64,000 nt of DNA, taken from contig NZ_JBFNQN010000010.1 of NCBI RefSeq assembly GCF_040796495.1, positions 124,001 to 188,000 of the forward strand, written 5' to 3'. Positions 4,117 to 47,239 of the stretch are shown here, in pieces. The notes beneath the pieces are model-generated. The model was not told the origin of the DNA. It saw only the letters and a list, made by a program, of their open reading frames with translations, and did not search any database. The DNA comes from Kineococcus endophyticus (lineage in GTDB: Bacteria > Actinomycetota > Actinomycetes > Actinomycetales > Kineococcaceae). A program made the position numbers and the translations under genes. How positions within the stretch are numbered: the stretch's first letter is position 1; the number at the start of each line of letters is the position of its first letter.

Positions 4117-4192
4117 TGGAGCCCCTGGTCGGAATCGAGCCGACGACCTACCGCTTACAAGGCGGTTGCTCTGGCCACTGAGCTACAGGGGC
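4117..4192 (-). tRNA. tRNA-Thr (anticodon TGT)
   Basis: Read on the minus strand, a full cloverleaf folds: acceptor GCCCCTG paired with CAGGGGC, D-arm GCTC/GAGC, anticodon stem ACCGC/GCGGT with loop CTTGTAA (anticodon TGT), variable loop, T-arm GTCGG/CCGAC with loop CTCGATT, discriminator T and encoded CCA at 4119-4117. It is 76 nt including CCA. It lies between a convergent regulator gene and the isochorismatase-family gene; no flanking attachment-site repeat was noticed. Confidence 0.96.
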
Positions 4193-39412: not shown

Positions 39413-42331
39413 TCAGGGGAGTTCGACGGCCCCGCTGAGTTCCGCCCTGGCCCCACCCGGCGCCGGGATCGCGTTGAGCGTCAGCGTGAACCTCGAACCA
39501 CCCCCGCCGGCGGGCTGGTAGACGAGGTCGCCGCCGTTGGCGTTGACGAGTTCCCGGGCGATGAACAACCCGAGCCCGGTGCCCTTCTGCCCGGCCGCGG
39601 TCCCGGTGGTGGCGCGGGCGAAGCGGTCGAACAGGTGCGGCACGAACTCCGGGGGGACTCCCTCCCCGGCGTCGACGACGTCCAGGAGCACGTCGTCACC
39701 GCGACGGCGGGCCGTCACCCGCACCGGCGGCCGGCCGTACTTGAAGGCGTTGCCCACCAGGTTGGTGAGGACCTGCTCGAGGTGGCCGCGGTCGGCGAGC
39801 ACCGTGACGTCCTGCACACCGGTCGTGTCGACCGAACCCGCCCGCACGGCCAGGCGGTCGACGACGTCGGCGACGAGCGCCGGCACGTGCAGCCGCGCGG
39901 TCCGCGGGAGCGGTGGGCCGGCGTCCAGCTGGGCCATCGTGAGGATGTCCTCGAGGAGGTCGTTGGCCCAGCGGCCGGCCTTCTGGATGCGGGTGAGGTG
40001 CCCGCGCCGGTCCTCCTCGCTCAGCCCCTGCCAGTCGTCGAGCAGCAGTTCGGCGAAACCGGTGGTCGTCGACAACGGCTGCCGCAGGTCGTGGCTGAGG
40101 GTGGCCACGAGGTCGTCCTTGAGGCGGTTCGCCTCCAGCAGCTGCTCGTTGGACCGGGCCAGGGCGTCCTGGGCGCGGCGCTGCTGCGACAGGTCCCGCA
40201 CGAGCGTGAGGGTGGCGCGGCCGCCGGCGTCGGGCAGGGGGACGCAGGTCACCTCGACGGGGACGGTCGTCCCGCCGGAGTGCCGCAGGGCGGTGACCGA
40301 GGGGAGCGCGGCGCGGACCTGGCCGGGGACGAAGGTGCGCCGTGCGGCCCAGGCGGCCTGCTCGTCCTCGGGGACGAGCAGCAGCGAGGAGGGCAGGGCG
40401 AGCAGGCTCGCGGTGCCCCGTCCGGTGAGCCGGGCCAGGGCGTCGTTGGCGTAGGTGACCTGGTCGTCGTGCTCGACGAGGACGCCCTCCCCGAGGTCGC
40501 TGAGGGCCTGCAGCAGACGGGTCGAGACGTCGCGCTGGCGGCGGACGCCCTCCTCCGCGGCGACGCGGTCGCTGACGTCCAGCACCTGCGTCGTCAGGTG
40601 CAGGGCCCGGCCGGCGGCGTCCCGGACGACGGCCGTGGAGACGTGGGTGTGGACGACGCCGCCGTCGCGGTGCAGGAGGCGCAGGTCGCCGGCGACGTCC
40701 CGGCCCAGGTCGGCGACGGACCGGTCGTCGGGGTGGACGTGGACGGCCCAGTGCTTGCCCACGAGGTCGGCCGGGCTGCGTCCGAGCATCGCCGCGGCGG
40801 CCGGGTTGGCCCGCAGGACCGTGCCCTCCAGGGTGAGGTCGACGTTCCCGACGAGCGAGGCGTCGAACGCGGCCTGCAGCCGGTCGGCCTGCGCGCCGGC
40901 CTGGCCGCGGGCCTCCTCGAGGTCGCGGCGCAGGGCGCGGTCGGCGCTGACGTCGGCCATGACGACGACGGCGCCGAGCGCGCTGCCGTCCGGTCGCGTC
41001 ATCCGCCGTCCCGAGCACACCACCGTGATCGCCGGTCGCCCGGCCGGGGCGAGGACGATCTCGGCGTCCGCGACGGACCCCTCGCGCAGCACGCGGTGCA
41101 GCGGCACCTCCTCGGGGCTCAGCGGGGTGCGACCGTCGGCGGCGTAGAGGTCGTACCGGCCGGCGTGCTGGGTGGGGTCCAGGCCCGTGTCGGCGTCCAG
41201 ACCGTGCCAGCGCTGGGCGGTGCGGTTGAACATCGTCAGCCGGCCCCGCTCGTCGGCGACGACGATCCCGACGTCGACGGACTCCAGCACCGCGGCGGTC
41301 AGCTCGCCGCGCGCCTCGGCCTCGGCCCGCAGGGCCGCGGCCTCGACGGCCAGCCGCTCGCTGGCGGCCGTCGAGAGCGCCATCGAGGCGAGCAGGACGT
41401 CGCGCTCGTCCCGGCTCATCGCCAGGGCCAGGCCCACCACGGCGAGCATGCTCACGTAGAGCTGGACGACGATCGCGCGGGTCGCGTCGTCGGCGATGAG
41501 GGCGAACGGGCCGTGCCCGGTGAGCGTGAGGACGACCGCGGCCACGCCCAGGGCCACGTCGAGGACGAGGACGACGGTCGTGTCGAAGCGCAGCGCGGCC
41601 CAGACGGCGAGGGCGATGAGCGGGAAAGCGACGGGAAGCCCGTCGTAGACGACGAACACGAGCGCGTACGCCCCGGCCGCGCAGACCGGCAGGGCGAGGA
41701 GTTCGACGCGCTGCCAGCCGCGCGGGAGGCGCACGGGCGCCACCACGTCCTCGTGGCCGCCCGCCGCCCCGCTCCGCGCGCGCCGGGCGTTCAGCAGGCA
41801 GCCCACGCGGAAGGCCGCCGAGGCGAGCAGCAGGATGCTCGCGGTGTTGCGGGTCATCCACACCAGCGTCGTCACCCAGGACCACGTGCCGCTGAGCGCC
41901 CAGACGGCGGTCGGGCCGAGCAGGGCGCCGGCCCCCGTGGCCACCACCGCCGCGGCCAGCAGCCGCATGAGCTGGCCGACACCGGTCAGCGGTTCCCGCC
42001 CGCCCGCACCCCACGCCCGCGGGCACCAGCGCGCGAAGAGGACACCGAACACGAGGACCTGCAGCACGTTCGCCCCGACGAAGCAGACGGCGAGCGCCGG
42101 GGAGGCCCCCGTGACGGCGTTGAGGACGAAGGTGGTCACCGACAGCAGGGCGAGGTCCAGGCGGACCGTGCCGGCCGATCGCTGGGCGGCGAACCAGACG
42201 ACGGCCACACCGGCCGCGGGCCACACCAGGCTCAGGCTCGTGCCGTCCATGACGGTCGCCCGTCCCAGCAGGACGGCGACGGCGAAGACGACGGCGAACG
42301 CCGCGCTGCGCAGCACGGCGGGTGCGCTCAC
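39413..42331 (-). CDS. MASE1 multi-PAS hybrid-free sensor histidine kinase
   Basis: 972 residues. The N-terminal 320 residues form a MASE1-like membrane sensor of about eight to ten helices (VWPAAGVAVVWFAAQRSAG). Three PAS domains follow (about 360-490, 500-620, 630-745), then HisKA with the phospho-His in ATLSHDLRQPLSTTTGFAEL and HATPase with NLVGNAFKYGRPP, DAGEGVPPEF and GTGLGLFIARELVNANGG. There is no receiver domain and no response regulator alongside. The GTG start overlaps the GGDEF stop (GTGA), so kinase and cyclase are coupled. The middle PAS resembles those in the neighbouring cyclases, suggesting local duplication. Confidence 0.92.
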   Translation of the reverse strand: MSAPAVLRSAAFAVVFAVAVLLGRATVMDGTSLSLVWPAAGVAVVWFAAQRSAGTVRLDLALLSVTTFVLNAVTGASPALAVCFVGANVLQVLVFGVLFARWCPRAWGAGGREPLTGVGQLMRLLAAAVVATGAGALLGPTAVWALSGTWSWVTTLVWMTRNTASILLLASAAFRVGCLLNARRARSGAAGGHEDVVAPVRLPRGWQRVELLALPVCAAGAYALVFVVYDGLPVAFPLIALAVWAALRFDTTVVLVLDVALGVAAVVLTLTGHGPFALIADDATRAIVVQLYVSMLAVVGLALAMSRDERDVLLASMALSTAASERLAVEAAALRAEAEARGELTAAVLESVDVGIVVADERGRLTMFNRTAQRWHGLDADTGLDPTQHAGRYDLYAADGRTPLSPEEVPLHRVLREGSVADAEIVLAPAGRPAITVVCSGRRMTRPDGSALGAVVVMADVSADRALRRDLEEARGQAGAQADRLQAAFDASLVGNVDLTLEGTVLRANPAAAAMLGRSPADLVGKHWAVHVHPDDRSVADLGRDVAGDLRLLHRDGGVVHTHVSTAVVRDAAGRALHLTTQVLDVSDRVAAEEGVRRQRDVSTRLLQALSDLGEGVLVEHDDQVTYANDALARLTGRGTASLLALPSSLLLVPEDEQAAWAARRTFVPGQVRAALPSVTALRHSGGTTVPVEVTCVPLPDAGGRATLTLVRDLSQQRRAQDALARSNEQLLEANRLKDDLVATLSHDLRQPLSTTTGFAELLLDDWQGLSEEDRRGHLTRIQKAGRWANDLLEDILTMAQLDAGPPLPRTARLHVPALVADVVDRLAVRAGSVDTTGVQDVTVLADRGHLEQVLTNLVGNAFKYGRPPVRVTARRRGDDVLLDVVDAGEGVPPEFVPHLFDRFARATTGTAAGQKGTGLGLFIARELVNANGGDLVYQPAGGGGSRFTLTLNAIPAPGGARAELSGAVELP

Positions 42332-44725: not shown

Positions 44726-44837
44726 GGGCTCCTCCTCGTTCTCGTCGCTGCTCTCGGGGACGGCGCTGCTCGTGGACCGTCGGTCCGAGTGTGCCGGGGT
44801 GCACAGGCGAGCGCCACCCGCCGAACGTCGGGGTTGT

Positions 44838-44849
44838 TTGTCAAGACAA
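44838..44849. promoter_or_regulatory. GntR-like operator TTGTC-AA-GACAA
   Basis: A perfect 5-2-5 inverted repeat upstream of the TIM-barrel gene, of the kind bound by GntR-family regulators. TTGTCA can serve as a -35 with CGTAAG 17 bp downstream as a -10, which would put the operator on the promoter. No GntR gene is in the window. Confidence 0.45.
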
Positions 44850-44922
44850 TCTGATCTGGTCGTAAGGTGGGACCCGGCGAGGACGCCCCTCGCTGCCGAC
44901 GCGACAGGGAGGCCCGTCCCGC

Positions 44923-45795
44923 ATGGTCAAGATCGCCCTCGACCCCACGCCGTTCCACCCGGACCACGACCTGCTCGAGCTGCCGGACCTCGTGGCCCGC
45001 GCCGGCTTCGAGCACCTGCAGCTCGCCCCGCACCCGGACGTGGCGCCCTTCTTCCGCCACCCCACGGCCGACGACGCGCTCGTCGCGGCCTTCGCCAAGC
45101 GCGCCGCCGACGCCGGGGTCGGGATCACCTCCCTGCTGCCGGTCCAGCGCATCTCCTGGCCCGAGGAACTCCAGCGCCAGGCGGCCGTGAAGAACTTCCG
45201 CCGGGTCCTGCAGATCGCCGTCGACCTCGGCGTGCGCGTCGTCAACACCGAGTTCTCCGGCCGCCCCGAACGGGCCGAGGACTCCGAGGCGGCGTTCCAC
45301 AAGTCCATGGAGGAACTGCTGCCCGTCCTCGAACGCGAGGGCCTCACGCTCAACATCGACCCCCACCCGGACGACTTCGTCGAGGACGGCCTGGAGGCGT
45401 GGCGGATCGTGCGGGGGCTGAACTCCTCCCACGTGGGCATGGTCTACGTCGCCTCCCACACGTTCCACTACGGGGACCGGGCCACGACGCTGCTGCCGGC
45501 GGTGGGCGACCGGCTCGGGGCGGTCTACGCCGCCGACACCTTCGACCACCGCCGGTCGCACGGTCTGCGCTACATCAGCAACCCGCCCGGGAACTCCGCG
45601 CGCATCCACCAGCACCTGCGGGTCGGCGACGGCGACGTGGACTGGAAGGAACTGTTCGACACGTTGCGCGGCACGGGGTTCCTCGACCGCGAGGACGCGG
45701 TCCTCGTGTCCAACGTGTTCGCCGAGGACGAGACGGCGCTGGAGACGTCGAGGTTCCAGCTCGAGCGGTTGACCGAGCTCACCGCCCCGCGCTGA
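44923..45795 (+). CDS. Xylose-isomerase-like TIM-barrel sugar isomerase/epimerase
   Basis: 290 residues of the AP_endonuc_2/xylose isomerase-like family. Metal-site segments seen: RVVNTEFSGRP (Glu), LNIDPHPDDFVEDG (Asp/His), SHVGMVYVASHTFHYG (His) and VGDGDVDWKELFDTLRGTGF near the end. Homologues are inositol (IolE/IolI), hydroxypyruvate or ketose epimerases/isomerases. It stands alone, with a GntR-like operator upstream, and converges on the malic enzyme gene with a 17-bp overlap. Substrate not determinable. Confidence 0.85.
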   Translation: MVKIALDPTPFHPDHDLLELPDLVARAGFEHLQLAPHPDVAPFFRHPTADDALVAAFAKRAADAGVGITSLLPVQRISWPEELQRQAAVKNFRRVLQIAVDLGVRVVNTEFSGRPERAEDSEAAFHKSMEELLPVLEREGLTLNIDPHPDDFVEDGLEAWRIVRGLNSSHVGMVYVASHTFHYGDRATTLLPAVGDRLGAVYAADTFDHRRSHGLRYISNPPGNSARIHQHLRVGDGDVDWKELFDTLRGTGFLDREDAVLVSNVFAEDETALETSRFQLERLTELTAPR

Positions 45796-46959
45796 CCTGC
45801 GGGTCGCGGCGCGCCGCCTGCGCGACGGCCGCCGCGACCGCCGGGCCCACCCGGGGGTCGAACGGGCTCGGGACGATCCGGTCGACCGACACCGCGCCGC
45901 CGTCCGCGGCGACGGCGGCGATCGCCTCCGCGGCCGCGAGCTTCATCCCCTCGGTGATCCGGCGGGCACCCGCGTCCAGCGCCCCGGCGAACACCCCCGG
46001 GAACGCCAGCACGTCGTTGATCTGGTGGGGGAAGTCGCTGCGGCCCGTCGAGACGACCGAGGCGTACCGCGCCGCGACGTCGGGGTGGACCTCGGGGTCG
46101 GGGTTGGACAGGGCGAACACGAACGGCCCGGGCGCCATCGTCGCCAGGAGCCCCTCCGGCAGCTGCGCGCTGGACAGGCCGACGAACACGTCGGCACCGG
46201 CCAGGGCCTCGGCCAGGCCCCCGCGGACCCCGCGGGGGTTCGTCTGCGCCGCCGGCAGCGCCTTCTCCCCGCCGCGGTCGGCGTCCACGACGCCGCGCGA
46301 GTCCAGGACGACGACGTCGCGCACCCCGGCCGCGACGAGGAACCGGGCGCAGGCGATCCCCGCCGCACCCGCCCCGGACACGACGACGCGCAGGGCCGGC
46401 AGGTCGCGACCCGTCGCGGCGCAGGCCCCGTGCAGGGCGGCGAGCAGGACGACGGCCGTCCCGTGCTGGTCGTCGTGCATCACAGGGCAGTCCAGCGCCT
46501 CGACGAGGCGGCGTTCGAGCTCGAAGCAGCGCGGCGCGGAGACGTCCTCCAGGTTCACGGCGCCGAAGCTCGGCCGCAGCCGGACGAGGGTCTCGACGAT
46601 CTCGTCCACGTCGGTGGTGTCGAGCACCAGCGGGATCGAGTCCAGGCCGCCGAACTGCTTGAACAGCGCGGACTTGCCCTCCATGACCGGCAGCGACGCC
46701 CGCGGCCCGATGTCGCCGAGCCCCAGCACCGCGGTCCCGTCGCTGACGACCGCCACCAGCCGGTCCGTCCACGTGTACCGGCGCACGAGGGCCGGATCCG
46801 CGGCGATCGCGCGGCACACGCTGGCCGACGCCCGCGACCTGTCGATCGCCTACACCCCGGGCGTCGCGCAGGTGGCGTCGTCAGCGCCGTCCCGAGCTTG
46901 CCGCCCTCGTGGGCGGCCAGGACCTCGGTGTCGCTGGGCTGGGTCGTCGTGGTGGTCAC
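45779..46959 (-). pseudogene. NAD(P)-dependent malic enzyme disrupted by a small internal inversion
   Basis: Translation begins at the GTG at 46959 behind an ideal GAGGAG and gives the normal N-terminus VTTTTQPSDTEVLAAHEGGK-LGTALTTP. The frame then breaks. The expected next segment LADARDLSIAYTPGVAQ is present at the right place but on the opposite strand (46821-46871). Afterwards normal sequence resumes, VCRAIAADPALVRRYTWTDRL, and continues to the stop: MEGKSALFKQFGG, CPVMHDDQHGTAVV, VVSGAGAAGIACARFL, FALSNPDPEV. The lost segment holds the YTPGV motif with the catalytic Tyr. Re-inverting 51 bp restores all residues but leaves one extra base at each junction. A truncated protein of 346 residues could start at GTG 46819 but would lack the Tyr. 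Malic enzyme converts malate to pyruvate. Confidence 0.9.
46821..46871 (+). other. Inverted 17-codon segment inside the malic enzyme gene
   Basis: Read on the plus strand this gives LADARDLSIAYTPGVAQ, the malic-enzyme active-site segment, while the gene lies on the minus strand. Its two ends form an imperfect 14-bp inverted repeat (46821-46834 and 46858-46871, two mismatches) with a perfect 9-bp core CGACGCCCG/CGGGCGTCG, so the segment can fold into a hairpin with a 23-nt loop. Confidence 0.9.
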
Positions 46960-47239
46960 GCGGTCTCCTCGCAGGGTTCGACCGCCGGCGCTCCGGCGGC
47001 GGTCGCCCCAGCCTGGCGCCGGCCGGCCGGCCCGCGCCCTCCCCGGCGCAGTGCAAGGAAGATCCGCGGTTCTTCCGCGGTGGGTGAAGAACGCACCGGT
47101 CCTCGGGCACGCGGGGGCGCTGCGGACGTGGGTACGGTGGTCGGACGGCCCCCGGACCCCGGGCCCACCGCGGCTCGAAGCACCGGGCGGCGCACGCGTC
47201 GCCTGGTGCAGCCGGCGGCGACCGCGAAGGGGAGACGAC
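46960..47239. other. Divergent intergenic region, malic enzyme / ANTAR gene
   Basis: 280 bp without a gene. Contains the malic enzyme Shine-Dalgarno and the hairpin CCGCGG-TTCTT-CCGCGG (47064-47080). A GGGTAC element occurs near 47128 but no matching -35 was found. Confidence 0.5.

Follow-up and report, generated by a model that had tools for sequence, protein, structure and literature searches.

How does a gene come to carry its own catalytic motif on the wrong strand, and has such a gene been lost? The question is raised by a malic enzyme gene on the minus strand of the Kineococcus endophyticus contig NZ_JBFNQN010000010.1. It lies in a stretch of 64,000 nucleotides (contig positions 124,001 to 188,000; hereafter the window, whose numbering we use throughout). 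The gene opens with a GTG codon at 46959, and an AGGAG ribosome-binding-like sequence was read directly from the DNA immediately upstream of it. The N-terminal part reads VTTTTTQPSDTEVLAAHEGGKLGTALTTP on the minus strand and then loses its frame. From 46819 another minus-strand frame starts with VCRAIAADPALVRRYTWTDR; it differs from the frame of the N-terminal fragment and is open to 45779. The pieces are as follows:

46874–46959, minus strand: N-terminal malic enzyme fragment, from the GTG start to ...GGKLGTALTTP.
46820–46873, plus strand: inverted segment of about 54 nt that carries LADARDLSIAYTPGVAQ with the catalytic tyrosine motif, delimited by profile score and by enumeration of inversions.
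45779–46819, minus strand: remaining malic enzyme frame, open over 346 codons, with the lysine motif VMEGK and the metal motif HDDQHG kept.

Both the tyrosine motif and the reading frame of the gene are broken. The preliminary description expected about 392 codons for an uninterrupted gene, and the span from 46959 to 45779 minus two bases agrees with this. It had also placed the missing segment, in plus orientation, exactly in the gap, with the YTPGV motif and its catalytic tyrosine inside it. The plus strand at 46821–46871 does translate to LADARDLSIAYTPGVAQ, and the motif, which malic enzymes of the short bacterial type have on the coding strand, is present here only on the strand opposite to it. 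If one ambiguous base per end is counted, the inverted stretch becomes 46819–46874.

Against a profile of 33 distinct segments from 41 orthologous loci, LADARDLSIAYTPGVAQ scores 56.7 bits; the orthologues, which are those that built the profile, score 42.9 to 67.3 bits (median, 58.1). The runner-up among the 111,195 stop-free 17-mers in the six frames of the window reaches 11.3 bits (mean, −35.5; s.d., 7.1), and because of this gap a chance resemblance to the tyrosine segment is excluded. Comparison with orthologues, proposed as a check, places the segment on the coding strand with the same neighbours in all 41 loci (22 of the 80 in one orthologue set and 19 of 19 in another, out of 99 malic-enzyme loci); the pattern used required PGVA and is therefore no test of the conservation of that motif. 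With a looser pattern applied to all 99 loci, the tyrosine motif is followed by the lysine motif in a single open frame in 97, the two unmatched loci being L032 and L084. In the prokaryote-like malic enzyme of Entamoeba, the catalytic residues include the tyrosine of YTPGV and the lysine of VMEGKA, according to the excerpted text of PMC11944484.

Judged from its sequence, the protein is a malic enzyme by descent, of the short bacterial type. Its closest orthologues are 70–75% identical, PF00390 and PF03949 match above their cut-offs, and the C-terminal part matches a putative malic enzyme in the PDB (2a9f, E = 1.8e-94); three NCBIfam models also match, each under its curated cut-off. An earlier suggestion was to look for a second malic enzyme; none turned up when the genome was searched with PF03949, PF00390 and the protein sequence. 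A match to PF00390 is missing from 8 of 10 congeners. The other two (G001 and G005) encode a different malic enzyme, within a longer open frame, and the present protein matches it only piecewise, at 34–44% identity. A close copy of the gene is absent from all ten, and the original orientation is read from orthologues that are at most 75% identical. At the family level, the search covered one genome beyond the genus set, which had no match; among 198 genomes sampled in the order, that of the window being one of them, 113 have a match to the protein at E 1e-40 or better.

Three congeners were examined at this locus (G001, G003 and G005); all lack the gene there, so that they offer no syntenic copy from which its ancestral state could be read. 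In G003, the isomerase-like gene and the malic enzyme gene together make up a missing stretch of 2.3 kb (44834–47117), the flanks of which are about 32 bp apart in that genome. G001 and G005 have kept the neighbouring isomerase-like gene, with no malic enzyme beside it. It is likely that the gene was either acquired by this lineage or lost in the others. Malic enzyme is thus dispensable in the genus and its loss tolerable, because no second copy was found in this genome and most of the congeners have none. Elsewhere in the window, a tRNA-Thr (TGT) lies on the minus strand at 4117–4192.

What event could have produced the arrangement? The preliminary description counted one surplus base at each junction and held that a simple flip would not restore the frame. 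The count is right (net +2), and a plain flip of the 51 bp gives no joint frame. We enumerated single inversions of at least 10 nt, allowing up to six bases to be reused at either end, and found no pure inversion that joins the flanking frames. The two flanks do not share a frame and pure inversion leaves the length unchanged, so that such an inversion cannot by itself account for the event. With base reuse, a single inversion can reach 385 distinct in-frame ancestral peptides. These were scored against a profile of 38 distinct orthologous segments, which are also the source of the profile and have a median of 121.4 bits and a lowest score of 91.8 bits. The top ancestor scores 121.5 bits, has the codon count of the orthologues and requires the inversion of 46820–46873 (54 nt) with two reused bases:

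46818–46819, minus strand: bases GT of a GTG codon, copied twice in the one-event model found by enumeration, inverted once and direct once.

The second-best ancestor, for which 42 nt are inverted and again two bases reused, scores 109.6 bits, inside the orthologue range, and is less likely than the 54-nt model. The third, from a 28-nt inversion, scores 90.4 bits, slightly below the lowest orthologue. The inverted segment, its frame arithmetic and the failure of the searches to find another malic enzyme are direct results; because these two inversions give competing ancestors, we infer the exact breakpoints, as we do the template-switch mechanism and the biological origin of the event. An inversion of about 54 nt with GT used twice accounts for every base, both surplus ones included: one inversion with two reused bases yields the two junction bases at once, and they are no separate problem. 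We also considered an inversion of the spacer followed by two separate single-base insertions at the junctions and rejected it as needless, since it takes three events instead of one.

The segment ends had been described as an imperfect 14-bp inverted repeat with a 9-bp perfect core, and this is what we find:

46821–46834, plus strand: left arm of the imperfect inverted repeat, core 46826–46834, 12 of 14 positions paired.
46858–46871, plus strand: right arm, core 46858–46866, 12 of 14 positions paired.

The repeat is only modestly unusual. A perfect repeat of at least 9 arises in 5.4% of 5,000 synonymous recodings of the 17 codons, and the longest perfect repeat is at most 7 in all 41 orthologous segments. 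When the folding of the strand is compared with that of shuffled sequences, z is −1.03, and 27 of 200 shuffles fold equally well or better; with a folding energy ordinary for such DNA, the strength of the hairpin is unsupported as proof of mechanism. In the preferred model, the breaks fall immediately beyond the repeat arms, as if copying had crossed the base of a cruciform.

We propose that the single malic enzyme gene found in this genome is probably a real pseudogene, inactivated by one replication slip. The copying strand would have left its template at the small imperfect inverted repeat and then followed the opposite strand for about 54 nt, inverting the segment with the catalytic tyrosine. 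After a return to the template two bases early, GT would be found twice, in inverted and in direct orientation. As expected of a template switch, a single excursion onto the opposite strand explains all bases. A hairpin-guided switch is a plausible cause, and the earlier proposal that template switching was a likely one holds up, given the inverted repeat at the site and the single-excursion model, with a hairpin energy that is unexceptional. More speculatively, and we think doubtfully, copying across the base of an extruded cruciform, which would invert the whole cruciform with a 2-nt overlap, may be a distinct outcome that recurs as a way of killing genes in very G+C-rich genomes.

The remaining frame contains changes of another kind, identified by alignment with orthologues and by reading the codons directly:

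46025–46027, minus strand: His codon where relatives have Asn (GRSDFP-N-Q).
46013–46015, minus strand: Asp codon where relatives have Asn (IN-N-VLAFPG).

The motif is GRSDFPNQINNVLAFPG in most aligned relatives and GRSDFPHQINDVLAFPG in this copy; an Asn of the GRSDFPNQINNVLAFPG motif binds malate. The two altered positions hold Asn in 99 of 99 related loci (87 read by a strict pattern, 6 by a looser one and the last 6 in a later check), and this Asn/Asn pair of malic enzymes is absent here. The His and Asp at two constant positions suggest real decay, independent of the inversion. Overall, the C-terminal part keeps 109 of 111 invariant columns and deviates at 2. When each orthologue was left out in turn, 2 or 3 such deviations were seen in 7 of 28 (28 loci were read out of 40 supplied); a count of 2 is not exceptional on its own.

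The preliminary description left a choice among a real loss, a locus with mixed orientations and an assembly error. Useful mixed orientations find no support, as a pure flip cannot join the frames, and the indirect evidence leans towards a real loss. An artefact would mean that a fold-back, or a template switch during PCR, took place at the hairpin and was carried into the consensus, and that the gene of the living strain is intact. Such an error would fit a draft assembly of 46 contigs with a G+C content of 74% (in the 204 kb examined), the 346 codons that are still open and the near-complete retention of invariant columns. However, single-read artefacts are normally averaged out by the consensus, the site is interior to a contig of 230,291 bases, the nearer end of which is about 59 kb away, and the same gene is altered at the two otherwise constant Asn positions. 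Moreover, a scan for micro-inversions against G003, in which 134,678 bases aligned at 86% within 204,000 bases of the contig, revealed no convincing second inversion in the 134.7 kb aligned. Spiked inversions were recovered in 90 of 150 cases, having been placed regardless of the aligned part when only about 66% of the stretch aligned; the malic enzyme region is missing in the G003 stretch and hence lies outside the scan. The near-absence of other inversions speaks against a systematic assembly fault. The sole weak candidate, one 40-base interval at 41751–41791 (contig position 165751), has a reverse identity of 0.725 versus a forward identity of 0.55 and is probably due to chance. A check of the frames of neighbouring genes against G003 is noisy, since in DNA so rich in G+C matches also come from open frames on the antisense strand. 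On balance, the event is quite likely biological, and an artefact seems unlikely.

Two further readings accept the sequence as it stands. In one, the segment is reversibly flipped by site-specific recombination and switches the enzyme on and off; its ends do form an inverted repeat, and intragenic invertons have been reported (Chanin et al. 2024, as cited in the available part of PMC11868660). We reject a reversible switch, and rate it as very improbable, as no pure inversion joins the flanking frames and the 51-bp flip, which should restore the frame in such a system, gives no joint one. An argument in the excerpts of PMC8755829 holds site-specific recombination across microinversions of less than 33 bp to be physically impossible, the DNA being too stiff; stretched to 51–54 bp, it may also weigh against a switch here. 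In the other reading, the 346-codon C-terminal frame yields a truncated but functional protein that has taken on a new role. Its first codon is a GTG exactly at the junction, it is open and retains the cofactor-binding part, and the two Asn changes could mirror new constraints. Yet no ribosome-binding-like sequence was found upstream of the junction GTG when the DNA was read directly, and the catalytic tyrosine has been lost together with the N-terminal part, a part that contributes to dimerization and to a shared active site in the Entamoeba enzyme (PMC11944484, in excerpt). We therefore give this reading hardly any credence and retain that of a pseudogene made by one replication slip.

A pseudogene of this origin has relatives among known systems. 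The intragenic invertons of Chanin and colleagues reportedly are short inversions with inverted repeats inside bacterial coding genes. The word microinversion is also used in a paper on genome rearrangement in bacterial populations (PMC2483231). The present case shares with invertons a short inversion in a coding gene, but here a flip cannot restore the frame. The relevant class is that of quasipalindrome template-switch mutations, known from thyA, rpsL and lacZ reporters in E. coli, from CYC1 in yeast and from rII in phage T4. In the available portions of PMC7202029 and PMC8604942, these combine a short imperfect inverted repeat, a templated multi-base change and a loss of gene function, all three of which recur here. 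In the outcomes that the same portions describe, a repeat arm is corrected or the spacer inverted, whereas here about 54 nt are inverted with both arms and two bases are reused. Human and chimpanzee microinversions resemble the present case as short inversions associated with inverted repeats, and template switching or microhomology-mediated break-induced replication has been proposed for them (PMC8755829, in part). Those events, as the same excerpts describe them, span 17–33 nt, are mostly pure and have repeats that lie beyond the inverted part; in the present case the inverted part has the repeats as its own ends and the inversion is impure (+2). The event belongs with known template-switch mutations and is longer and less pure than the examples in the cited literature, as far as the excerpts go. 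In the portions available of the literature on microinversions, template switches and intragenic or quasipalindrome inversions in bacterial genomes, we found no comparable case, which does not establish novelty in print.

What the locus offers is a natural template switch of rare legibility, one that seems to have put an end to a bacterial gene. The inverted segment encodes a constant motif, and the sequence alone therefore reveals which way it once faced and how many bases were used twice. For annotators, the lesson is that a motif absent from a gene may lie on the opposite strand. If real, the event would give a long bacterial case, of about 54 nt, to a class of mutation known, in the excerpted literature, mostly through shorter events.
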